Below are positions 9,737 through 22,073 of a stretch of DNA of 22,073 nt, in pieces. Numbering within the stretch: position 1 is the first letter of the stretch; each line of letters starts with the position of its first letter. Where the stretch lies: the IMG/VR virus record IMGVR_UViG_3300032293_000735, positions 1 to 22,073 of that record; one strand, written 5' to 3'. The DNA comes from a virus. The notes under the pieces were generated by a model. It saw only the letters and a program-made list of their open reading frames with translations. It made no database searches and was not told the DNA's origin. Made by a program: the position numbers and the translations under genes.

Positions 9737-11728
9737 TTACCCTTGAATAAACATGGCATGAGTACTGCCTGTCGATACTTTGCGAATGTTTGGCAAGCTA
9801 CTTATTAAGACTGGAGAGTTTGCGCTTTGTGTTCCATCCCCAATGTAACCCATTGTCGAACCCCATCCCCAAAGTTCTCCATTAGTTTTTAAGGCGTGTC
9901 TCATTTCAGTATAAGCACCCACTTTACTAAAGGATGCCCAATTTGTTGCGGATCCTACTTGGAGAGGGGTTGTGCTTGAGGTTGTTCCCCCGAGCCCTAA
10001 TGCGGCTGCGCTAATTGCGCCGATTGTGTTCCCCCAACTCCACAGCGTTCCATCCGTTTTAATCGCATGACTAATATGGGTACTACATGCAACCTTTGCC
10101 CAATTATTTGCCGTCCCAATTTGGGTTGGGCTGTAAAAAACTCCCCCTGGGCTGCCTGTTGTAATCTGTCCTGCCGAAGCGTCTCCCCATCCCCATAACG
10201 TACCATCAGCTTTTATGCCAAGAGCGTGACCTCCGTAAGAGCCCCCATTCGTTGCAGCTACGCTTAACCATGTTCCCGGTATTTGAATTGGGGTCGCAGA
10301 ACTTGTTTGATTGCCTTGGCCAAGCCATCCATAGGAGTTTCCGCCCCATCCCCATAAGGTGTCATCTGTTTTTAATGCCAATGTAAAAAAGTTAGTACAA
10401 AATACCTCTTTCCAATTTGTATCGGTTCCAACCTGCAAAGGGATTAAACTTTGGGCACCGCCTGGAATCATAAAAACGTTATTGTTTTCTCCTCCCCATA
10501 TCCACATAGTGCCATTGCTTTTTATTCCTGCTGAGTAATAAAGCCCCGAACTAACTTTTGCCCAATCTGTAGCTGTTCCAGCTTGTGTTGGCTGCGATCT
10601 TTGAGTCGTGGTGCCATCGCCAAGTTGACCGTAATAATTGCTACCCCAACCCCAAAGCGTACCATCACTTTTTATTGCAAGAGTGCTGTGCAAATTAGGA
10701 TACCCTTCGCACTCAATATCAATCCAATTACTTCCACTAATTGTATTTGTTGGGTAAAGAAAATCTGTGCTACCAGCTAATTGGTTTACACTATTGCTTC
10801 CAAACCCAAACAAAACACCAGGATAAACTGGCACAGTAGGCACAACCGGAGTTACAGGGGTACTACTTACACCACCGATAAACCCAACGTCTCGGCATCC
10901 GGTATCAAGAAACCCACAGTTATAGCGGAATATATTACTAGTCCTACCGCCGTTGCGTTCGGCTAGATCGTTCCTTAACCCGATGTTAAACTCGGCTTCT
11001 AAATCCTGATACTCAAGCCCCTTCATCCGGTAGAATCGGGCTAAAATTCCCTTCATCAGGATTGAGGGTTCAATTAAAGGCTCGTCCGTATCAGCGATAA
11101 AACGCTCATAAAGGACGTTCGCCTTCCGTGTCCACGTAATCGTCCCATCGGCTCCATTGTTGGCGATTGTAGGGGCAGAAGTGCCCGCTGTGCCGCTTGT
11201 ATTTGCAGTCCAATACTCACCATCGGAGAACACCCACATGCCCGCTGTAACGCTCATAGAGGCCGCCCATTCTCGGGGCTTTATCCATGTCTTCGAGCGG
11301 TAAAAGAGGCTGATTGTTTCATTACCCACCGGAGTAGGGTGCATCGCAACGGCTCTTGCGCCTTTGCTGTTTTGCGATACGCGAAATGCAAACTTAATTC
11401 CGGCGTTACCCGTTTGTGTAAGTGCCTGCCATTCCCGAGGCGTTATTGGGCCTCGTATCGGAGTCATGTCGCCCGTGTACCATGCGGTCGAATCGAGTAG
11501 TTCAGCGCAATCAGCGGGAAGCGTCTGGTTAGTTCCAGCAACAAGGGAGAGGGAAGAGAGCTTAGTAAGCTGTGGCCAATCGAACATCCGAACGGCTTCA
11601 ATGCCTCGTTCGTTGGCAATCGCTAGCAACTGTCTAGTTGTCGCGTCCGTATTGTTGATTATGGATGTCGGGCGAGGAAAGCCACCAAAATCACAAGCAT
11701 CTTGGAGAACAGATAGAAGAGTCGCCAC
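9737..11728 (-). CDS. Tail adaptor (gatekeeper) fused to a seven-repeat RCC1-like beta-propeller
   Basis: 663 residues in two parts. Residues 1-285 resemble podovirus head-to-tail adaptors (T7 gp11 or P22 gp4 type): helical N-terminus with MFDWPQLTK, then [21 protein letters not shown] and a C-terminal helix near 205-260 ([28 protein letters not shown]). A small carbohydrate-binding-like insert sits at 154-204. After a Pro/Val/Thr linker (286-304), residues 305-663 hold seven repeats with the RCC1-like core LWGWG, followed in several by G-QLGDG. The start is GTG, with AGGA 9 bases upstream; it is the first gene after the head-tail terminator. The adaptor half should sit under the portal. The propeller would project from the neck or tail and may bind a host or capsid surface. 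The fusion reads through in one frame, without frameshift. Confidence 0.8.
9740..10816 (-). repeat. RCC1-like propeller repeats (seven blades) in the adaptor
   Basis: Codes residues 305-663. Repeat cores are at 305 (VLFGFGSN), 358 ([15 protein letters not shown]), 408 (MWIWGGEN), 458 ([15 protein letters not shown]), 511 (LWGWGDAS), 562 (LWSWGNTIG) and 619 ([14 protein letters not shown]). Each is preceded by (A/G)IK(S/T/A)(D/N)GT or a close variant. The spacing is about 50-57 residues. The last strand HAMFIQG would pair with the first core to close the ring. DNA repeats are visible too, for example matching stretches around 10190-10225 and 10655-10690. Confidence 0.85.
11117..11269 (-). other. 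Carbohydrate-binding-like insert in the adaptor core
   Basis: Codes residues 154-204. The pattern [18 protein letters not shown], then SAPT and GADGTITWT, matches the small beta module (CBM5/12-like) often found in phage tail proteins. It splits the adaptor between the strand [10 protein letters not shown] and the helix [12 protein letters not shown]. Confidence 0.55.
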
Positions 11729-13003: not shown

Positions 13004-13981
13004 TTAAGGTTTAGCATGTCCCTGAAGGAACAAGTTGCGAGCAGTCATATTACCAGCCCACGCAAGGTAACGGACAGTTGCATCTTGGTTGAACGAGTCA
13101 CGAGCTTTCAAAGGCACGAAGTTACGCTTCGATGCAGTTTTGAAGAACAAGTGGTTCATGTTTAGGAAGTGAGTTGTGGTTGCATTCGCAATACCCTGAT
13201 ACCCACCGCCGTTAACAACTGGAACGCCCATGAACTCAAGGCCAGTGCCAATCGTATCAACGGTGCCTTCACCCACTTTCATGATGCGCTGGATGGTCTG
13301 CAAGGACTCTCTATAAAGTCTAAAATGCGTTCCACCTGCGTATATAAGGGTAGGTTTTTCAGCGTTACGGGTTAGTCCGTCGAAACAGATTCCGTAAAAC
13401 TGCTGAATATTGGCATTGGTGAGGGAAGCAAACCCAAGATCGGAAGCATCAAATATCTGATTCCGCGCCCAAGTATAGGTTCCTCGATCAATTCCACCAA
13501 CCGAACCAGAAGTGTTTGCAGAAGGGTTAAGGAGTCCCAAACCACCAATCTGCTTTCCACCGTCGGCTGTCCCATCGGATTCAACGTCCGTTGCCATCGA
13601 GTTCATCATGGTGTACTCAGCGGCTTCGATTCTCTTTTCAAGGAGGTCGAATACCTGCTCAGGTCCAGTATTCTGAACGTCGCTTTCAAGTCCGTTAATT
13701 ACAACGGCAACCGCTACCTGCTTCCAGTTAAACCGAAAAGCCGTGAACTGTTCGGTCTGAGAAGTGTTAAGAACCTCAGAACCAGCATAACGCTGATAAG
13801 AGGGGTTTTCTGCAAACAGCTGCTCTTCGAGGATGGATTCTCCACCCGCAACTAGCTTCTGGTTGTCTTTCATAAAACGAAGCAAAGGGATGTTTTTCGA
13901 TATCCCATCTGCCATCTTTTTCGATCTCTTGTACATCGTTACGGTGAGCATTTCACCGATAGATGCGTTAGGCGTTGCCAT
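13004..13981 (-). CDS. Major capsid protein (HK97-fold type)
   Basis: 325 residues. The gene follows the scaffold by 10 bases, with AGGG 8 bases before the ATG. The segment NQKLVAGGESILEEQLFAEN, then YQRYAGSEVL and FRFNWKQVAVAVVINGLE, is characteristic of a phage capsid family with an N-arm and E-loop. Residues 110-135 form the long spine-like helix (EKRIEAAEYTMMNSMATDV). The C-terminal part has beta strands ending in VRYLAWAGNMTARNLF. There is no separate protease gene or propeptide in view, so assembly probably relies on the upstream scaffold alone. Placement between scaffold and decoration supports the call. Confidence 0.88.
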   Translation of the reverse strand: MATPNASIGEMLTVTMYKRSKKMADGISKNIPLLRFMKDNQKLVAGGESILEEQLFAENPSYQRYAGSEVLNTSQTEQFTAFRFNWKQVAVAVVINGLESDVQNTGPEQVFDLLEKRIEAAEYTMMNSMATDVESDGTADGGKQIGGLGLLNPSANTSGSVGGIDRGTYTWARNQIFDASDLGFASLTNANIQQFYGICFDGLTRNAEKPTLIYAGGTHFRLYRESLQTIQRIMKVGEGTVDTIGTGLEFMGVPVVNGGGYQGIANATTTHFLNMNHLFFKTASKRNFVPLKARDSFNQDATVRYLAWAGNMTARNLFLQGHAKP

Positions 13982-13991
13982 TATTTATCCC

Positions 13992-14963
13992 TTAAAAATA
14001 TCCAGTTTCTTTTGCCGCCTGCATTAAGGCTTCGCGGATATTGGCAGGTTCCTTTGTCCTAGTAGGCGCACCGCTAATGCCACTAACTCCGCTAGCTGCT
14101 CGCCTTACGGATTGCGGTACCGGCTGTGGCCTCCTTAATGAAGCAAAAGAAGGGTGGCGCAGTGCAGCTCCGTAGGCCGTTTCCAGTTGTTCTTCAAACG
14201 AGAGGTAGGGATAGCTTTGCTGAATCTCTGGAATAATCTGGGCCATTGCTTGCCGGACCTCGGCAAAATGCGGCTTTGCAGCCCCCCAGTTATTAACGTA
14301 ATCAGTTAGTTGCCCTAACTCAATTTGCCTCTGCTGTTCTGCGATACCTTGTCTTTGCGCTTCAATTTGACTCTGCTGGTCCCTTAACTGCCATCGCGCT
14401 TGCCTTACTTCAGGCGGTTCGTTCAGCTCTGGGTCGCTTGCAAGGTCGTGCAGGGAGATACGATTCATATCGGCAAAACGCTTAATAAACCCCGAAGGGT
14501 CTTTCATCATCTCACCCCGTTCAGCCAAAAGACGTTCAACGATTTGGCCTCTGGATACGTTATGCTTCTGTAACTCTGCGTCATACGGTTTAAGAGCCTT
14601 ATCGACTTCCTCAAAGGTCTTTCGCATGTTTGCAAACTGCCCTCCGATCTTGCTGATGTATGAGTGCATTTGGGCTTCGCGCTGATTGATGTACTTTCGC
14701 ACATCTTTCGGAACGCTTGCCCAACGCTGGCGCATCTCAGCAACCCACTGTTCAGGCTCAGGGATGTCCTCTTCCGTTTCACCTAAGACTGGCTCCTCTT
14801 CAGGAGTTTCTTCGGCTTCTTCTTCAAAGGTGGCTTCCTCGTCGTCGCCTGCTTCATCGGTCTGTGGTAAATCTTGTTCTTCGGCCTCCTCAACTTCTGA
14901 GCCTTCGTTAAGCTCGTTGAGATCCTCAGCCGCTTCCATTAAATCATTTCGCACGTCGCTCAT
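13992..14963 (-). CDS. Scaffold protein for procapsid assembly
   Basis: 323 residues. Residues 1-68 are extremely acidic (runs such as EEAEEQ and FEEEAEETPEEEP). The rest is helical and Gln/Arg/Glu-rich, with a coiled coil near 190-215 (QSQIEAQRQGIAEQQRQIEL) and a basic region near 275-290 (LRRPQPVPQSVRRAASG). The acidic-start, helical-rod and basic-end design, right before the capsid gene, is typical of scaffold proteins that bind the inside of the capsid shell through the C-terminal part. It overlaps the preceding gene by 4 bases (ATGA), so translation is coupled. No protease motif is seen. Confidence 0.82.
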   Translation of the reverse strand: MSDVRNDLMEAAEDLNELNEGSEVEEAEEQDLPQTDEAGDDEEATFEEEAEETPEEEPVLGETEEDIPEPEQWVAEMRQRWASVPKDVRKYINQREAQMHSYISKIGGQFANMRKTFEEVDKALKPYDAELQKHNVSRGQIVERLLAERGEMMKDPSGFIKRFADMNRISLHDLASDPELNEPPEVRQARWQLRDQQSQIEAQRQGIAEQQRQIELGQLTDYVNNWGAAKPHFAEVRQAMAQIIPEIQQSYPYLSFEEQLETAYGAALRHPSFASLRRPQPVPQSVRRAASGVSGISGAPTRTKEPANIREALMQAAKETGYF

Positions 14964-15367
14964 CGGCGTAATCCTTCGGTTATATCGTTAGGGTCTACTT
15001 CTTCGCAGTCTCTTAACTCTTGAGGGACGTTTGCATTAATGTAATCTTTGTCACCTCTCATCGCTGCGGCATACCACGCCTTTACTTGTTCGATATCCTC
15101 CCGTAGTCCTTCAATTTGTTTATTTTGATGCATCCCAACCGATGCCCATGTTCGATCATCATCGATCTCAACATATCCTCTTTCTTTAGTTACACGACGA
15201 AACGCACTCTTACTGTCGAACGTTTCCCCAGTTGCAGGGTGAAAGGTTGCTTTTATCGTGTCTTGGTGCACAGCGTGAACAGGGTAGGGGATTCGTTCAT
15301 CTCCACATGAAACAAGTTTCCCAACTGCGGGGTCATATCGCCACTTGCCTCTTATTCCTTCGCTCAT
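14960..15367 (-). CDS. Conserved phage protein of unknown function before scaffold
   Basis: 135 residues. The N-terminal 75 residues follow a pattern common in small phage head-module proteins: KWRYDPAVGKLV, then HPATGETFDSKSAFRRVTKE and RGYVEIDDDR. The second half is helical and acidic. No catalytic or metal-binding motif is complete; only two cysteines are present, far apart. It shares an ATGA overlap with the scaffold gene, so it is probably made at similar times. Function is not known to me. Confidence 0.7.
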   Translation of the reverse strand: MSEGIRGKWRYDPAVGKLVSCGDERIPYPVHAVHQDTIKATFHPATGETFDSKSAFRRVTKERGYVEIDDDRTWASVGMHQNKQIEGLREDIEQVKAWYAAAMRGDKDYINANVPQELRDCEEVDPNDITEGLRR

Positions 15368-15371
15368 CGTA

Positions 15372-16160
15372 TCAATCCATTGCCATTAAATACTCAAGGA
15401 GAAAGTCTAAATCGCGCAACTCTTCTTCCTCTTTTCTAGCTTTTTCAGCCGCTCTAAGTTCTTCCTCCGCCCGCTGTCTTGCTAAGACTTGTTCGAGTTC
15501 AAATAGGCGTCGTTCTGCATCCCTCCGCGCTTGTGCTTTCCCTTCTTCAATCAACGATAATAATCGTGATTGAATATCAAGGAATTTCGCTTCGGCATCA
15601 AGAATCTTATAATTTGATTCTAACAGAGAAAGTTGGTTGTCAATAGATATCTTTGCAGCGGCAAAAGTCCCGTTTGTCAAGGCTTTACTGCTTTGCTCTA
15701 TTGTTTCCGCTATTTTCTGAGTAGCTTCCCTTATTTTCCGTTGCGCTCGCTTTACGCGCTTTTTTGGCTTTTTTTCTGCAATTATCCAGATTTCTTGATA
15801 AATCTTTGTAGGCGCTAAATCGCTTGCGGTAAGAGTGCAGTCTCCAAGCGTTTTTATTACCGTCCCAGTCACCGAGGTGAGTAGGGTGCCCGTGGCAATT
15901 AAGCTAGCAGGTTGCAAAGTGGCGGTAATGGTCCCTGTAATCCCCGCACTTGCGATAGTGCCACTGCTCGATAGTGTGGCATTATTAAGCGTTTTTTCGA
16001 CAGTACCAGTGATGGGCGCACCAGTAACATTGCCGACACTGGATAATGTGGCGGCCCCGAGCGTTTTTGTAACAGTTGCGGTTATAGGCGTGGCAGGAGC
16101 TACTAGGGGCAATAACCCCACTTCACTAGCTGCCCCGTCATATAGTAAACGCCGCGACAC
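15372..16160 (-). CDS. Repeat-plus-coiled-coil structural protein
   Basis: 262 residues. Residues 26-116 hold four tandem repeats of about 24 residues with the core TGTVxKTLGxATLSSxG; residues 118-128 form a hydrophobic bridge (TKIYQEIWIIA). Residues 129-255 are a long basic then acidic coiled coil (KKPKKRVKRAQRKIREATQK ... AEEELRAAEKARKEEEEL). The start is GTG, with AGGA 10 bases upstream. Repeats of this type are common in phage structural proteins and probably form beta-structure. A head-fibre or tail-fibre-like oligomer held together by the coiled coil is inferred. Not recognised by name. Confidence 0.65.
   Translation of the reverse strand: MSRRLLYDGAASEVGLLPLVAPATPITATVTKTLGAATLSSVGNVTGAPITGTVEKTLNNATLSSSGTIASAGITGTITATLQPASLIATGTLLTSVTGTVIKTLGDCTLTASDLAPTKIYQEIWIIAEKKPKKRVKRAQRKIREATQKIAETIEQSSKALTNGTFAAAKISIDNQLSLLESNYKILDAEAKFLDIQSRLLSLIEEGKAQARRDAERRLFELEQVLARQRAEEELRAAEKARKEEEELRDLDFLLEYLMAMD
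15813..16085 (-). repeat. Four 24-residue Thr/Gly-rich tandem repeats
   Basis: Codes residues 26-116 of the gene. Repeats start at residues 26 (ITATVTKTLGAATLSS), 50 (ITGTVEKTLNNATLSS), 74 (ITGTITATLQPASLIA) and 97 (VTGTVIKTLGDCTLTA). The period is 24, 24 and 23 residues. The fourth is the shortest and ends the array. Confidence 0.85.
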
Positions 16161-16163
16161 TTT

Positions 16164-16976
16164 TTAATTTTCCTGTAAAATTAATGATCCCGTTATTGAT
16201 GTAGTGGTGGTTTGAGAAATATTGGCAAAGAATAAACACGCATCGTCTTCAATCTTAGCAACCCCGCCTGCGCTTTGACCGGAAATAAATCCCGCTGAAC
16301 TAAGAACGTTGTTGGCTTGGTCGTTGCATAACACATACAGCGGCTTAAACAATGTGACTCCAAAATTCCCCGCTGTTCCCGTCGTCCCTGCAACTGTCAC
16401 AGATTGAACGCTTTGAACGCCTGAATCTCCCGATTGCAGAGGTAACAACAAAAGCCTATTGGCTTCTCTAAACCCAGTTCCCCCAAACACGACTACTGGC
16501 GTGACTCTCGAACCGACCCCACTTTGATTAGTGTAAGTCGCCGTAATAGTCGTGGCCGTGGTCCCTATTTGGGTATAAATCGTGATACCGAGCATCACAC
16601 CATTGCCCGATGTATAACGGGTTAGTGCTGCGGTTGGAAGATTGGTTGTTTGAGCGGTCGTTACAACTCCACTTAATCCCCCTTGATGCGATAACCGATC
16701 ACAAACGATATAATTACCCTGAGTATTGCTCGAAAAATGTCCCCCTAAAATGCTTAATTGCTTTCCCGACGCAGCGTTGATTTGCCCAATAGCTCCCACG
16801 GTTGCTCTTGTAGGCGCAACCGCAGTAGTAGGAGCCGTACCTGGGATAGCTTGGGATACCCAAAAATCACTCAACCGTCCCGCAATAGCGGTTATTAGCC
16901 CTCCCGAACTATAAGTTACAATTTCACGAGGACTAGTTAGGGCGGTTTTATAATCGGCCAAGGTTGCAATCGCCAT
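16164..16976 (-). CDS. Beta-rich structural protein, paralogue of the upstream gene
   Basis: 270 residues, rich in Thr, Gly, Ser and Val, with no charged core. Shared segments with the adjacent 278-residue protein are DRLSHQGGLSG (93-103), YTQIGTTATT (134-143), VFGGTGFREA (163-172), GDSGVQSVQSVTV (183-195) and TAGNFGV (201-207). This places both in one virion-protein family commonly found in phage head modules. The ATG follows the preceding stop by one base, with GGAG 7 bases upstream. It may be a capsid-surface or head-fibre protein; no enzyme motif is visible. The exact location in the virion is not known. Confidence 0.7.
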   Translation of the reverse strand: MAIATLADYKTALTSPREIVTYSSGGLITAIAGRLSDFWVSQAIPGTAPTTAVAPTRATVGAIGQINAASGKQLSILGGHFSSNTQGNYIVCDRLSHQGGLSGVVTTAQTTNLPTAALTRYTSGNGVMLGITIYTQIGTTATTITATYTNQSGVGSRVTPVVVFGGTGFREANRLLLLPLQSGDSGVQSVQSVTVAGTTGTAGNFGVTLFKPLYVLCNDQANNVLSSAGFISGQSAGGVAKIEDDACLFFANISQTTTTSITGSLILQEN

Positions 16977-16977
16977 C

Positions 16978-17814
16978 TTACTTCTCCACGATGGAGAACC
17001 CGCTTAAAATCTCGGGCGCAGTTGTGCCACCAGGCACCCATAACAACGATAGGCAAGTCCCATCATCTATTTTTGGAATGGATGGTAATCCGGTGATATA
17101 ATCGCGCCAACCAGCGGCCCCAGCTACCCCAACCCCGATATAAGCAAGGATTCGGCCCATAACTATCCCGAAATTTCCGGCTGTAGCAGTGGAAGCTGTC
17201 AATGTAACGCTTTGAATACTTTGAATCCCAGAATCATTCGCAGCTAAAGGAAGAAAGATTGCTCTTGTCGCTTCTCTGAAGTTTGTACCTCCAAAGGCTA
17301 CTCCCGTCGAAGTGTTTCCTGAGTTCCCGTCTTGGTCGGTGTAACTCATAGTGAGGGTGGTCGCAGTAGTTCCAATCTGGGTGTAAATTTCTGCAAACGC
17401 AAAGTTACCTTTTCCGCCAGTGTTGCGGGTAATCGTGCCCCCGACTGTTTGAGCTGTGGTAACGGTTCCGCTTAATCCTCCAATATGCAAAAGTCGGTCA
17501 TAGAGGATTAAAGTACCCGGCACAAGCGCAGTCGCCCATGCTTGCGTCATCCAACTTTCGCGCCCATTTCCAGCACTTGTAAAAGGCAATGCCCCCGTAG
17601 TTGCATTAGTTGGAGCTGCTACTGTCGTTGGTGCCGCCCCAGCCGAGGGCTGCCCATCGTACTGCCATAAGCTAGCTAGCCTACCTGTAATTAGTGAGGG
17701 TGCTGCTGCACCAGCAATACGAGGCTGTTTATGATAAAATACGTTTTGAGGAGTCCCGTTATTGCCGCCTGTTGAACGGTTGATCAAATCGGAAATATCC
17801 GTAAGAGCTGTCAT
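16978..17814 (-). CDS. Beta-rich structural protein, paralogue of the downstream gene
   Basis: 278 residues with the same order of segments as the 270-residue neighbour: YDRLLHIGGLSG (105-116), YTQIGTTATT (144-153), AFGGTNFREA (173-182), NDSGIQSIQSVTL (193-205) and TAGNFGI (211-217). The N-terminal 60 residues and the C-terminal 60 differ, as expected if the exposed ends evolve fastest. It overlaps the upstream 70-residue gene by 4 bases (ATGA), with GGTGA 4 bases before the ATG. The predicted role is a virion surface component. It is possible that the pair forms a hetero-oligomer. Confidence 0.7.
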   Translation of the reverse strand: MTALTDISDLINRSTGGNNGTPQNVFYHKQPRIAGAAAPSLITGRLASLWQYDGQPSAGAAPTTVAAPTNATTGALPFTSAGNGRESWMTQAWATALVPGTLILYDRLLHIGGLSGTVTTAQTVGGTITRNTGGKGNFAFAEIYTQIGTTATTLTMSYTDQDGNSGNTSTGVAFGGTNFREATRAIFLPLAANDSGIQSIQSVTLTASTATAGNFGIVMGRILAYIGVGVAGAAGWRDYITGLPSIPKIDDGTCLSLLWVPGGTTAPEILSGFSIVEK

Positions 17815-18023
17815 AATTCACCGCTCCAATCTATCCCACGTTCTAGTGCGTCGGCCTTTGCCGCAACGATTAAGGTCGCTAGGTTGTCAAGGTTTAGGCC
17901 GCTCTCATAAATTAGTTGGCCAACTTGGGGCTGGATTTCAAATACTCCTCGGTCAATCACAATACGCCAATCACCCGTTGCCGCAATATATGTAGCTCGA
18001 CCTGGTTCGATGATTATATCCAT
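17811..18023 (-). CDS. Small unrecognised protein of the portal-scaffold interval
   Basis: 70 residues, starting MDIIIEPGRATYIAATGDWR and ending in an amphipathic helix (LATLIVAAKADALERGIDWS). It is joined to both neighbours by overlapping stop and start codons (TAATG upstream, ATGA downstream), which supports it being a real translated gene. No motif or family is recognised. Confidence 0.7.
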   Translation of the reverse strand: MDIIIEPGRATYIAATGDWRIVIDRGVFEIQPQVGQLIYESGLNLDNLATLIVAAKADALERGIDWSGEL

Positions 18024-18430
18024 TAGGCGTTACCATCGGTTAGGGTAAAAGTTGTAATTTCAAACGAACCACCCGAAGTAAATGAAACTGAGCTAACTTC
18101 CATATCCCCACCGCCGCCCGTAGCTGTCACGGTGCCCTGTAGGTGGCAAGTCGTAGCCCCAGAGTCAAATAACCTAAAATGTGCGGCTGTGCCGGTGGCA
18201 TCTGCACTGGTATCGCTCCATGTGCCACTTTTAGCTTTAGTGCCACCTGATGCCGCTGCCATATAGTCACTTGGGCAGTTAATGGTAGCTAAAACGGTTC
18301 CAGTATTTGCTGCCGCGCAATTAGCAGGGGCACTTCCGCTTCGAATTTGCAAAACAGCACTAGTCCCTATGGTTGTTTCAATCGCGTCTAAACGCGCATT
18401 TCTGACCGACTCGCTTAACTGTATTGCCAT
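18023..18430 (-). CDS. Small beta-rich structural protein following the portal
   Basis: 135 residues. The pattern is one seen widely in phage and prophage head modules: a short N-terminal helix (NARLDAIETTIG), then AVLQIRSGSAP, a TGTVLATINCPS strand, TGTAAHFRLFDSG and a C-terminal strand FEITTFTLTDGN. It contains 4 cysteines without a CxxC pair. Its ATG overlaps the portal stop (TAATG), with GAGGG just upstream. A virion structural role is likely by context; the precise function is unknown. Confidence 0.7.
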   Translation of the reverse strand: MAIQLSESVRNARLDAIETTIGTSAVLQIRSGSAPANCAAANTGTVLATINCPSDYMAAASGGTKAKSGTWSDTSADATGTAAHFRLFDSGATTCHLQGTVTATGGGGDMEVSSVSFTSGGSFEITTFTLTDGNA

Positions 18431-20811
18431 TATTCCCTCTTAGAAAGTCCACGAATCCCCACAAAAGCGTCTTTTATCTCAGGCGCTACGTCATCTGATT
18501 CGTCAATAATTATCATCTTATTGCCAAACTCGTCGGTCGTTATTCGGCCTTTCCGAGTTCGCTGCCTTGGCATCATGTTAAACTCTGCGGCTTTTTCAAC
18601 GCTCATTTTAAGCATCTCGCGCCCGTGTTTTAGCTCTTCAATCTTACGTTCGCGTTCATCTTCGAGATATATCTTCTCACGCTCAAGAGCTTGTTTTTCT
18701 CGCTCTAAAGTAACTTTGAGCGCAAGTTCGGCCTCATCCTTCATCTTCTGCTGCTGCTGTTTCATCATTTCAGCTTGCAGTTTTTGAGCTTCGACTTGTG
18801 CTGCTACCTCGTTCTCGGCGGAAGCCTGTTGTTGGCCCTGTTGAGTGGCCTGCTCTTGTTGCATCCGCTGTTGCTCTTCAATGGCGCGTTGCTCCTGTCG
18901 AGCCTTTTCCATTTCGCCTTCTACTTCGGTGAGAGCTTTTTCAAGTTTCCCCCTTACCTCACGGCCCGCCTCAAACTGGCTTGTCGTGTACAGGGTTATC
19001 TCGTTAATGACTGGCATCAACTGAGGGATTGCTTGAGCGTGTGGAAGCAATACGTTGAATAAATTACCTAGTGCGTTAGTTAGGTCAATTGCGGATTGTT
19101 TTGCGGCTTCTTGGTCAGCGAAAGTAGTCGAATCTGTCTCAATATCAATGCGATAATCGCTCTGAGTATCATTGCGAAGTAGGTCAATTACACCGCCTAA
19201 ATACTCTTCTATTTCAGGGTCATTAGTAACGCCTGCCATCTTAATCATGGTCTGAGGCTGGAAGTGGTTCTTTACGATTTGCGCCATCAGTGCGACAACA
19301 TCGCGGCAGAACTTAGCAACCTTTCTTTGCCTTTCACTAATTCGACTCATCGCGTACTGAGTCTTGATTTGTTGCGCCCCTAAAGTCTCAGAAGCGCGAG
19401 AAGTACCACGCACAATGTCAGAGATACCAGTGATATCGTATATCTGCTGCTTTTCTTGCTCCATCGCTTCATGCAGTACGCGCAAAATCGCTGCATGGTC
19501 GGCCATCGAGAGTACTTCCAGTGCGCTTTTTACGCCGCCCTGTTGTAGGTACATCTGGAAGTTAGAAAGCTGAATATGAGTGCCGTTTGGCTTCTTTAAG
19601 ATGTTGTCTAGTTCTGGGTTCTCGCTTCCCGAGATAGAAACAACCTTAATATATCTCGCAATATCTTGGGCTTTCTGGCAGAGCTGATTTAAGGTCTCTT
19701 GCTGGTCTTGGTAGAAACAGATATCGGGTCTTGGGATAAGTCCCGTGGTCAAAGTAGCAAAAAGAGGCTCAGGGCAGGGGAAAAACTCATCAAAGGTAAG
19801 ATACGGCTCGTCCTCTTTTAGGATTTCATTATGCCCTTCAGCTAGCCAATAGACCTTATTAGAGTCTTTGCACCAAACCTCGTACACGCAGATACGGTTC
19901 TTGTTTATTTCCTTCTCGCCTTCTTCCTGCGACGCTTCCTGCGAGTTGCGATAAGTAATGTAAGCATCTTCGCCGAATTTCTCCTTAAACTCTTTCTTAG
20001 TTATATGGGTTTTTCGGGCTACTTTGCGAACTTCGGCCCATGTTCTTGCTGGTTCAAACAGCAGATCCGACCAATGGATGTAATCAACTACGCATTTCTC
20101 ATCTAAGAGCGTTTCAACGGGCTCCCCGTCAACGTAGTACCCTTCATCGTCTTGTTTAACGAGACTAGGGTCTACAGGTTGGCCCATCTCATCAACGTAC
20201 TGCTCAGGGGCTTCTGGTGCTTCTGGATAGCCTTCAGGAGCTTCACCCATTTCGGGAGCTTCTTGGGCTTCCATCTCGCCGCCCATCTCCATGCCCATCT
20301 CAGGCATAGGAGGCATCCCTTCCATCGGGGGCATACCAGGCATTTGGCCCATCATAGGGGCAGGTGCTACCTCTTGGACTCGAATCTTAGGAGTTTGTAC
20401 GCCTATTTTTGGCTCGTAACGTACCCATAGGGCACCTTGGCCTACAACGAGGTAATCATCAACGGCGCGTGACACGGCAGCATCGAACCCCGACACTTCC
20501 ACTTGGAACCGTGTGCAACGCTCTAGGATCTGGCTTCCTAAACGCGCTGTAACGTCCCGAGTAGGGTACCGCCTGAATATCTCTGGTTTGGGAGGTTGCG
20601 CGTAAAGAGCGGGTTTGAGGGTATTAACAATCGACCAGAATACGTTCAATTGTGCAGGTCTTTCGCAGTATTGACTGAAATCTTCACCGGCATACAGCTG
20701 CTCACTGCGCCTTGCCATCTCGTAGTAACGGTCACGCGCCTTTTTCCACCGTCTAATCTCGGTGTGCAGGGGATGCTCTTTGTCTTTGTCGTCGCTTTCG
20801 TACTCAGCCAT
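18430..20811 (-). CDS. Portal protein
   Basis: 793 residues, the dodecameric channel at the packaging vertex that binds terminase and adaptor. The N-terminal region shows portal features: EIRRWKKARDRYYEMARRSE, QLNVFWSIVNTLKPALYAQP and DYLVVGQGALWVRYEP. The segment DITGISDIVRGTSRASETLG and the following helix are the typical portal stem and crown region. Residues 148-208 are a Met/Pro/Glu-rich insert. The C-terminal 190 residues are a Gln/Glu/Lys-rich coiled coil. It follows the terminase gene by 83 bases. It is large for a podovirus portal, in the size range of P22 gp1. The Shine-Dalgarno is weak. Confidence 0.88.
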   Translation of the reverse strand: MAEYESDDKDKEHPLHTEIRRWKKARDRYYEMARRSEQLYAGEDFSQYCERPAQLNVFWSIVNTLKPALYAQPPKPEIFRRYPTRDVTARLGSQILERCTRFQVEVSGFDAAVSRAVDDYLVVGQGALWVRYEPKIGVQTPKIRVQEVAPAPMMGQMPGMPPMEGMPPMPEMGMEMGGEMEAQEAPEMGEAPEGYPEAPEAPEQYVDEMGQPVDPSLVKQDDEGYYVDGEPVETLLDEKCVVDYIHWSDLLFEPARTWAEVRKVARKTHITKKEFKEKFGEDAYITYRNSQEASQEEGEKEINKNRICVYEVWCKDSNKVYWLAEGHNEILKEDEPYLTFDEFFPCPEPLFATLTTGLIPRPDICFYQDQQETLNQLCQKAQDIARYIKVVSISGSENPELDNILKKPNGTHIQLSNFQMYLQQGGVKSALEVLSMADHAAILRVLHEAMEQEKQQIYDITGISDIVRGTSRASETLGAQQIKTQYAMSRISERQRKVAKFCRDVVALMAQIVKNHFQPQTMIKMAGVTNDPEIEEYLGGVIDLLRNDTQSDYRIDIETDSTTFADQEAAKQSAIDLTNALGNLFNVLLPHAQAIPQLMPVINEITLYTTSQFEAGREVRGKLEKALTEVEGEMEKARQEQRAIEEQQRMQQEQATQQGQQQASAENEVAAQVEAQKLQAEMMKQQQQKMKDEAELALKVTLEREKQALEREKIYLEDERERKIEELKHGREMLKMSVEKAAEFNMMPRQRTRKGRITTDEFGNKMIIIDESDDVAPEIKDAFVGIRGLSKRE
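20188..20370 (-). other. Met/Pro/Glu-rich low-complexity insert in the portal
   Basis: Codes residues 148-208. The first half is Met/Pro/Gly (PAPMMGQMPGMPPMEGMPPM), the second Glu/Ala/Pro (APEMGEAPEGYPEAPEAPEQ). About twelve methionines occur in 61 residues. It lies between the strand PKIRVQEV and the acidic YVDEMGQPVDP that leads to CVVDYIHWSD, so it is probably a disordered loop outside the channel core. Confidence 0.7.
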
Positions 20812-20894: not shown

Positions 20895-22073
20895 TTAAAT
20901 CCGCCACCGATTGCTCACATCGTCCACCGCTTCCACCAAGTCCGAATAGGTCATCGCGTTCGGGTCTCGGCGCTTCTTCTTGTCAAACCGTGGAATAACT
21001 GGCCATTGCATTGCTATGTAGCGGACAACATCAGCGCAATTATGGACAATAATTCCGCCTAAAATGGAGAAGTTTTCAACGTCGGGGACGTGCAAACAGT
21101 AAACGTCAGCTTGCCCTACTTGGTTTACGCTGAGGCATACCACGTCGCTTGTCTGAACTAACTTTAGCGGCGCACTCTTTTGAGCAGGTGATTTTTCGCG
21201 CGTATCTGTTGCAGATAAAGGTTGTCCCACACTCTGAACATTCCCTTGATTCGTCGTCAAATCCCTGTAGTCGTCGCCATTTGCTCTTACAGTTATTGTG
21301 GCAAAATTCGGCTTTTTGATGCCCAAGGAAAGATTTGCTGCAATGTTTGCATATTTTTTTATGGTCTTTTGCATTCTGCTTAGCGTAGCAGTGATTCCAA
21401 TAGTGCTCCCTGTGCCACGCACGACCTTCTTCAGATTTATGCCATTCTGTGGCCTTATCTCTTGCATGTGTTGCAAGGTACTCTCTACTTTTTGCTTTGC
21501 GCTCTTCTTCTCGCATGTGTAACGACATGTGAGCTGCTCTTTCAAGCAGTTCGAGGTTGTCCAACCTGTTATTTGACTTATCCTTGTCCTTATGGTGGAC
21601 ATGCCACCCCTTTGGAATAGGCCCATGAACAGATTCCCAAACCGCCCTATGGAGTCGTAGCCCATCTCTTTGAAAGTAATGCCCGCAAAGATAGAACTTA
21701 ATTCCGTTGAACTCTTGGGTTGTGTTGTTGATGATTGTTGGTTCCATATGCCAACATGGTAGCATATCTCACCCGTAAAATCACTAGCATTTATCCACTT
21801 TGCATCTTTATTTAAGAAGCCATGGTCTGGTGTGCATCGAACTTTTTGTCCATTGCTGAAAATCAATTCAACAATCGGCACATTCTTTTGCTTTAACCCG
21901 CAATTTATGTAGTCGCGAACCCCTTGAGCTGTAAAGACCTGTCCAGCTTTTGGCATTTCATCAATACGCATCGGCCCATTTGCCGTGTCAACCAAAGTAT
22001 CGCCCGTAAAGCAGTGGTCAGCTCCTTGCGTATCCACGTCCTCTGGCCTTCTATCATCGTGCTGAAGCATCGG
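20895..22073 (-). CDS. terL: Large terminase subunit, C-terminal fragment with intein
   Basis: Packaging motor and nuclease; only its end is in the window, the 5' part lies beyond base 22073. The frame is open to the edge, so the ATG at 22070 is internal. The N-extein end RRPEDVDTQGADH and the C-extein start CADVVRYIAMQWP join into the conserved tail motif of phage terminases, in which D-T-x-x-x-D-H is followed by ADxxRY. The remaining C-extein is 47 residues, ending in a basic and acidic helix (LVEAVDDVSNRWRI). The ATPase and most nuclease motifs are not visible. It precedes the portal, the usual order. Splicing is needed to give the intact protein. Confidence 0.9.
   Translation of the reverse strand, partial: PMLQHDDRRPEDVDTQGADHCFTGDTLVDTANGPMRIDEMPKAGQVFTAQGVRDYINCGLKQKNVPIVELIFSNGQKVRCTPDHGFLNKDAKWINASDFTGEICYHVGIWNQQSSTTQPKSSTELSSIFAGITFKEMGYDSIGRFGNLFMGLFQRGGMSTIRTRISQITGWTTSNCLKEQLTCRYTCEKKSAKQKVESTLQHMQEIRPQNGINLKKVVRGTGSTIGITATLSRMQKTIKKYANIAANLSLGIKKPNFATITVRANGDDYRDLTTNQGNVQSVGQPLSATDTREKSPAQKSAPLKLVQTSDVVCLSVNQVGQADVYCLHVPDVENFSILGGIIVHNCADVVRYIAMQWPVIPRFDKKKRRDPNAMTYSDLVEAVDDVSNRWRI
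21106..21765 (-). CDS. HNH homing endonuclease nested in the intein in another frame
   Basis: 219 residues. Residues 18-83 are an HNH domain: FNGIKFYLCGHYFQRDGLRL, GPIPKGWHVHHKDKDKSNN (His57, His58, Asn65/66) and LDNLELLERAAHMSLH. Two zinc-ribbon-like pairs follow: Cys139/Cys142 with Cys155/Cys159, and Cys176/Cys179 with Cys194/Cys198. It is in the -1 frame relative to terminase and intein. A TGA at 21769-21771 in its own frame lies two codons before its ATG, so it is not fused to the intein N-part. The TGA stop at 21106-21108 falls exactly before intein block F. It should cut an intein-less terminase gene to drive homing. ATG at 21747 is an alternative start. Confidence 0.88.
   Translation of the reverse strand: MLPCWHMEPTIINNTTQEFNGIKFYLCGHYFQRDGLRLHRAVWESVHGPIPKGWHVHHKDKDKSNNRLDNLELLERAAHMSLHMREEERKAKSREYLATHARDKATEWHKSEEGRAWHREHYWNHCYAKQNAKDHKKICKHCSKSFLGHQKAEFCHNNCKSKWRRLQGFDDESRECSECGTTFICNRYARKITCSKECAAKVSSDKRRGMPQRKPSRAS
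21768..21774 (-). promoter_or_regulatory. Possible ribosome-binding site for the nested HNH gene
   Basis: Minus-strand GGGTGAG, of which GGTGA is complementary to the 16S tail region. It is only 2-3 bases from the ATG at 21765, closer than usual. No better site precedes the alternative ATG at 21747. Low translation would suit an endonuclease. Confidence 0.4.

Follow-up and report, generated by a model that had tools for sequence, protein, structure and literature searches.

An accessory phage protein with a repeat array of variable length and a helical C-terminal part, encoded in an exchanged cassette: a candidate stalk of the particle

According to the available excerpts of two papers (PMC6542822, PMC7602432), gp8.5 of phage phi29 binds the capsid by a beta N-terminal base, its helical C-terminal part protrudes as a spike, and these head fibers have no effect on capsid stability or infectivity. 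T4 Hoc, T5 pb10, and SPP1 gp12 are described, in the accessible part of one of these papers (PMC7602432), as accessory capsid-surface proteins linked to host adhesion. In this study, we analyzed a virus record of 22,073 bases (hereafter the window) and focused on the product of 15372-16160 on its minus strand, which we call the repeat-helix protein and for which phi29 gp8.5 is the closest structural analogue.

On the minus strand, the gene order runs from the terminase end, which contains an intein, through the portal gene, a 135-aa gene of PHROG 3758, a 70-aa gene, the paralogous 278-aa and 270-aa genes, the repeat-helix gene, a second 135-aa gene, and a 323-aa gene to the major capsid protein gene (Table 1). 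The 323-aa gene is taken as the scaffold gene from its position. An AGGAAAA motif lies upstream of the GTG of the repeat-helix gene. No useful match to the repeat-helix protein was obtained in PHROGs (best E 0.14), Pfam (best E 0.22), or PDB sequences. A plus-strand ORF at 15835-16167 (110 codons) was considered as a gene and rejected, as it is the complement and by-product of the repeat array.

Elsewhere in the window, the terminase end (20895-22073, minus strand) matches Pfam Intein_splicing (E 2.5e-12) and fully encloses, in another reading frame, a 219-aa HNH_3 endonuclease (21106-21765, minus strand; E 4.1e-18). Approximately 1 kb of this terminase-intein stretch is missing in 7 of the 11 relatives compared (L004-L007, L010, L011, and L013). 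Additionally, the product of 9737-11728 (minus strand) is a fusion of a tail protein (PHROG 6013) with an RCC1-like propeller (Pfam WD40_RLD, E 5.5e-45), and the RCC1 part is mostly unaligned in L004 and L005 and aligned in L001 and L003.

Table 1. Coordinates of the repeat-helix gene, its parts, and the surrounding features of the window
Feature	Position	Strand	Basis or remark
Repeat-helix CDS	15372..16160	-	ORF listing; 262 aa, GTG start
Four tandem repeats, 23-24 residues	15804..16085	-	Residues 26-119; core TGTVxKTLxxATLS
Bridge IYQEIWI	15783..15803	-	Residues 120-126; I, Q, E, W, and I invariant in alignments A1 and A2
Basic segment at the start of the helical part	15729..15773	-	Residues 130-144; net +6 over the first 20 residues of the C-terminal part
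Long alpha-helical part with acidic end and LLxYLM tail	15378..15761	-	Residues 134-261; AlphaFold2 helices, charge profile, tail conserved in relatives
Exchange block containing the repeat-helix gene	15275..18865	.	blastn against 11 capsid-matched loci
135-aa cassette gene	18023..18430	-	PHROG 3758 'virion structural protein', E 1.1e-34; 74.8% identical to the copy in L049 (second group)
278-aa cassette gene	16978..17814	-	Paralogue of the 270-aa gene, 44% identity over 223 aa
270-aa cassette gene	16164..16976	-	Paralogue of the 278-aa gene
135-aa gene downstream of the repeat-helix gene	14960..15367	-	Right-hand exchange junction in its 5' end
Portal	18430-20811	-	PHROG 156 match to the window portal, E 2.6e-14
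Major capsid protein	13004-13981	-	PHROG 9953, E 5.8e-77

A sequence-only reading of this DNA had proposed four regular repeats with a TGTVxKTL core, and the self-similarity of the protein bears this out. The units comprise residues 26-49, 50-73, 74-96, and 97-119, with lengths of 24, 24, 23, and 23 residues, respectively. Over the first 115 residues, the self-similarity peaks at a lag of 24 with a mean BLOSUM62 score of 0.73, which is reached by none of 2000 shuffles (best-lag maximum 0.07 +/- 0.12). At the DNA level, the units agree with one another at 25/69 to 43/72 positions, i.e., 36-60%, and Tandem Repeats Finder detected no array at the repeat region; because of this low identity and this missed detection, the window array is considered to be old. 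AlphaFold2 predicts two beta strands per repeat at low confidence (pLDDT of about 50-61).

The repeats are joined to the helical part by the hydrophobic bridge that the same reading had described, and its basic start and acidic end agree with the charge profile; in 20-residue steps along the C-terminal part, the net charge is +6, +1, +1, -2, +2, -2, -4, and -1. Among the capsid-matched relatives, conservation covers the bridge as well as the acidic end and its leucine-rich tail. In the AlphaFold2 model of the window protein, for which a 7-sequence alignment was the input, helices extend over residues 134-162 and 166-261, and the longer one mostly has a pLDDT of 82-93; the overall pTM of the monomer is 0.30. 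The proposed coiled coil of about 125 residues stands in part: one long helix is predicted and approximately 128 residues are helical, but the heptad-type hydrophobic periodicity (3.3-3.85) is not significant, being reached by 473 of 2000 shuffles. Such periodicity falls below 0.05, uncorrected, in only one of seven proteins tested (L001, 52 of 2000 shuffles). Similarly, a sister-group model (pLDDT 58, pTM 0.35) has strands in the array and helices after it, and neither of these low-confidence monomer models gives a monomeric globular fold.

Relatives were found via the capsid protein, the portal, the repeat DNA pattern, and further searches; the window protein alone as a query retrieved no relative in the viral contigs. 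Thirteen viral contigs have a capsid protein 81-100% identical to that of the window, and a homologous gene occurs at the same position in 10 of them. The syntenic protein has no repeats in eight contigs (153-158 aa), two repeats in L012 (187 aa), and five weak repeats in L006 (252 aa). L007, L011, and L013 lack the gene, their portal gene being directly followed by the 135-aa gene, and the whole records of these three (35.5-36.0 kb), which may be incomplete, gave no match to the family alignment. Furthermore, nine capsid relatives from the phage collection (Mx8, Mx9, BUCT555, RHph_I3_18, ppBjS10J-1, ctMlz233, 45A6, Mwe-JY13, and scaffold_779) were inspected by eye, and none showed a repeat-helix protein between portal and capsid. 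The repeat number is not constant across the 13 capsid-matched contigs (0, 2, or 5 repeats, or no gene), and the repeat-helix gene is accessory. Because relatives carry zero to five repeats or lack the gene, the protein fits an optional particle part of adjustable length rather than a core one, and because 8 of the 13 have no repeats, the array is not needed for the role of the helical part. A core head-assembly role was considered separately and rejected, as L007, L011, and L013 share the portal, scaffold, and capsid genes without a match to the family in their possibly incomplete records.

Two near-identical pairs of contigs differ by whole units within their arrays. Between L080 and L073, a 138-nt in-frame gap inside the array corresponds to two 23-aa repeats, and the flanks are 99.94% identical before the gap and 99.8% identical after it. 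L083 and L082 are 98.5-99.9% identical, and L083 has one 35-aa (105-nt) proline-rich unit fewer; both carry a different array type on the same C-terminal domain as the second phage group described below. Differences of exact unit multiples in such pairs fit recombination between units. Because these contigs were assembled from metagenomes and repeats can collapse in short-read assembly, an assembly error might lie behind the unit differences. Neither pair represents the array of the window, and this diverged array contains no recombination evidence of its own. Nevertheless, the earlier expectation that the repeats could lengthen or shorten is supported by the two pairs and by HMM counts of 4, 5, 2, 3, 2, 2, and 0 units in relatives.

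A DNA pattern for TGTxxKTLGxxTL occurs in 17 stretches of the viral contigs. In 15 of them (L042-L056), the encoded protein has 222-225 aa, or is truncated by the end of the contig in one case. This protein has an MTLLTLL start, four repeats, the motif GG[WF]DPYAYKRR, helices, and an acidic end. Single repeat copies lie in other proteins of L040 and L041. The gene of this second group lies between the portal and scaffold candidates where the contig reaches (gene order at three loci). The portal of the group matches Pfam P22_portal (E 4.5e-97), and its capsid protein matches Pfam Phage_capsid_3 (E 4.2e-59). BLASTP against the window gave a chance-level match for the capsid protein (E 1.1) and a low-complexity match for the portal (E 0.024); at the profile level, the portals of both groups show weak kinship, PHROG 156 matching the window portal too (E 2.6e-14). 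A wider search yielded 20 loci, 16 of which were read as four-repeat forms (nearly identical, one cut off by the contig end). Among the others, L080 has two repeats, L081 has three, and L082 and L083 have an unrelated array of proline-rich units of about 35 residues. L086, from the last search, has two repeats. All four rows of alignment A4 retain GG[WF]DPYAYKRR at the start of the C-terminal domain.

Homology of the IYQEIWI and WDPYAYKRR C-terminal families was examined with hhalign and rejected (probability 0.4%, alignment only at the acidic end). Because hhalign finds no homology between these families, what the two groups share is the repeat, the layout, and the slot. A profile built from the four window units only detects 5 units in L006, 2 in L012, 3 in L081, 4 each in L067, L070, L047, and L048, and 2 each in L080 and L086, and it detects no units in 10 of the 19 non-window proteins tested. 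For six of these proteins, none of 1000 shuffles of the N-terminal part scores as high. Directly before the proline-rich-array gene, both L082 (4602-5186) and L083 (1090-1674) encode a 194-aa protein that by eye is methyltransferase-like.

The surroundings of the repeat-helix gene were compared with 11 capsid-matched loci by blastn. The left break falls inside the portal gene, at window positions 18866-18859, in nine loci (L001, L003-L008, L011, and L013), and homology resumes at position 15274, inside the 135-aa gene, in seven (L001, L003, L004, L005, L007, L008, and L011). In L006, L010, L012, and L013, it resumes at other positions, and L006 retains a 73% stretch of the PHROG 3758 gene within the block. 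For L001, the flanks are 94% and 96% identical, and the block between them has no match. These alignments indicate that the block is replaced as a whole between close relatives.

Cassette genes are common to unrelated heads. The 537-aa protein of L042, in the second group, is 83% identical to that of L012, whose capsid is of the window type. The same protein is also found in three Synechococcus phages (four records), namely, MinM1 (70.9%), B23 (65.4%), and S-CRM01 (40.6%, two records; homologue SCRM01_022), and the B23 copy lies between the portal and scaffolding genes of a T4-like phage. Both Rctr197k and ctCJ8213 have relatives of the 270-aa and 278-aa genes in tandem; the pair lies downstream of a baseplate-J-like gene in the former and adjoins an alginate lyase in the latter. 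PHROG 3758 relatives are found in Pan4, Mae-JY02, Mel-JY03, Mwe-JY26, and Seuss. The 137-, 147-, and 268-aa cassette proteins of L006 have counterparts in Mwe-JY26 at 59, 30, and 26% identity, respectively, and the 268-aa protein matches PHROG 10356 'virion structural protein'. The cyanobacterial labels of some of these cassette relatives are taken from the records.

Other repetitive proteins are encoded beside related cassettes. In the corresponding position of a related cassette, Microcystis phage Mwe-JY26 (L063:8807-11311) encodes an 834-aa protein; the start of this protein, MSLRIRTPQ, resembles the MPLRIRQPQ of L006 and is followed by another repeat type, GIQDGDTFGS. The 630-aa proteins encoded at L060:7337-9229 and L061:7487-9379 have long GTASGTLDLTGSATG-type arrays and adjoin PHROG 3758 genes. 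The one in L061 is labelled glycerophosphodiester phosphodiesterase, and its visible sequence is glycine-rich and repetitive.

Searches beyond these contigs were largely negative. With tblastn against 50,697 phage records, no match was obtained for the repeat-helix protein, its array, the 0-repeat form, the L042 form, or the C-terminal part of L082, and the L006 array gave one chance-level match (E 6). In the genome contigs, the repeat DNA pattern occurred in 0 stretches, and the capsid alignment gave 271 pattern matches, 0 of which were confirmed. A fold search of BFVD and PDB (Foldseek for PDB) gave no match at E<=0.001, which says little given the low-confidence query model. A literature search conducted without the repeat sequence showed, among the papers listed, none on the repeat-helix protein or its repeat.

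Taken together, we tentatively propose, with a confidence just short of even, that the repeat-helix protein is an accessory, length-adjustable stalk or linker of the particle, most likely at the head or neck surface. The conserved C-terminal part, i.e., the bridge, basic start, long helix, and acidic end, would attach the protein to the particle or associate with itself, possibly as a bundle, and the variable N-terminal array would serve as a spacer that sets the reach of the N-terminus. Unequal recombination between the repeats would add or remove whole units. The gene itself travels in a cassette of candidate adhesion or decoration genes, and block exchange of this cassette takes place between the portal and scaffold genes. 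We count in favor of the stalk the repeat number of 0-5 together with gene loss, the whole-unit differences of the pairs L080/L073 and L082/L083, the block exchange at recurrent breakpoints, the same slot and layout with an unrelated portal and capsid, the matches of cassette proteins to PHROGs named virion structural protein, the cassette genes in common with Synechococcus phages, and, in other phages, the proximity of 270/278-aa relatives to an alginate lyase and a baseplate-J-like gene. Against it, we count the eight repeat-free forms among the 13 relatives, the two C-terminal families without detectable homology, the non-significant heptad periodicity, and the opposite orientation of gp8.5. 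The status of the protein as a fiber is plausible but unproven. We infer that the N- and C-terminal roles are reversed, as the sequence-only reading had held in comparison with the tail fiber; this fits a C-terminal part that is conserved and an N-terminal array that is variable, swapped, or absent.

The main rival explanation, which we regard as unlikely, places the protein the other way round: as in a gp8.5-like head fiber, the N-terminal beta repeats would form the capsid base, and the C-terminal helix would protrude as a spike. The parts do come in the same order, a beta N-terminus followed by a helical C-terminus, and the excerpts on gp8.5 describe a beta base and a helical spike (PMC6542822, PMC7602432). 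However, a capsid-binding base is expected to be the conserved piece, whereas the 0-repeat forms retain the helical part, and in L082 and L083, the array is replaced by an unrelated proline-rich one while the C-terminal domain stays. Alternatively, the protein might be an assembly factor or adaptor (a chaperone or linker) for the other cassette proteins and not itself a surface fiber. Its gene moves together with the cassette and disappears when the cassette does, and the first residues are alike within one cassette type (M[FL]LTLL for the 537-aa cassette, M[PS]LRIR for the LamG-like one), although an MTLLTLL start also accompanies another cassette in L049. We hold this to be rather unlikely, since MinM1, B23, and S-CRM01 have the 537-aa gene with no repeat-helix gene seen among its listed, translated neighbors, and the protein is thus not strictly required.

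A location on the tail or neck, as a fiber component instead of a head decoration, seems improbable: cassette-related genes do lie beside fiber or baseplate genes in B23, S-CRM01, and Rctr197k, but the slot of the repeat-helix gene is among head genes, between portal and scaffold, in both the window and the second group. Finally, the array might be a neutral, disordered spacer without fiber structure, the copy number of which drifts without consequence. That the array can be absent, beta-like, or proline-rich, and that model confidence within it is low, would suit such a spacer; positions such as TL and TLS, however, are kept despite the 36-60% DNA identity of the units, and we consider this explanation highly improbable.

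The stalk that we favor might be one case of a general 'array on a helix' surface device, an extension that we consider possible but doubtful. Here, a fixed helical C-terminal anchor would carry interchangeable N-terminal arrays (beta, proline-rich, or none) and would be traded with adhesion cassettes via the portal-scaffold slot among unrelated heads, with repeat number governing reach and cassette exchange governing binding. If the protein does serve as a surface stalk, an otherwise constant phage head could be re-fitted with new surface parts via one exchange slot, and the length of one part could be tuned by unit-wise recombination. Moreover, the natural 0-, 2-, 3-, 4-, and 5-repeat forms would then allow a direct test of the effect of stalk length on adsorption or particle behavior.

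Compared with phi29 gp8.5, the repeat-helix protein has a similar arrangement, with a beta N-terminal part followed by a long helical C-terminal part (predicted for the window protein), and it is likewise encoded among head genes, in the portal-scaffold slot, and accessory, the gene being absent in 3 of 13 relatives. In contrast, gp8.5 is not among the phmmer PDB-chain matches, and Foldseek with the low-confidence model gave no PDB match at E<=0.001. Furthermore, gp8.5 binds by its N-terminal base, whereas the conserved piece of the window family is the C-terminal part, and variation in tandem-repeat copies is not described for gp8.5 in the available excerpts (PMC6542822, PMC7602432). With T4 Hoc, T5 pb10, and SPP1 gp12, the likeness concerns the proposed role, that of accessory capsid-surface proteins in host adhesion; as far as the excerpted source describes them, those proteins are Ig-like or predicted to be collagen-like, whereas the window protein has no useful Pfam or PHROGs match. 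The 834-aa protein of Mwe-JY26 and the 630-aa proteins of Pan4 and Mae-JY02 similarly have units of approximately 22-25 residues (counted by eye) and genes beside cassette relatives, but they differ in repeat sequence and, by eye, have no basic-to-acidic helical C-terminal part. The repeat of the adenovirus shaft differs from the window repeat in length and sequence. Fiber shafts of the adenovirus type, built of short repeats and variable in length, serve as a working analogy (shaft in the available part of PMC12796354). Collectively, exchangeable phage surface modules are an already known kind, of which the repeat-helix cassette is a new version.
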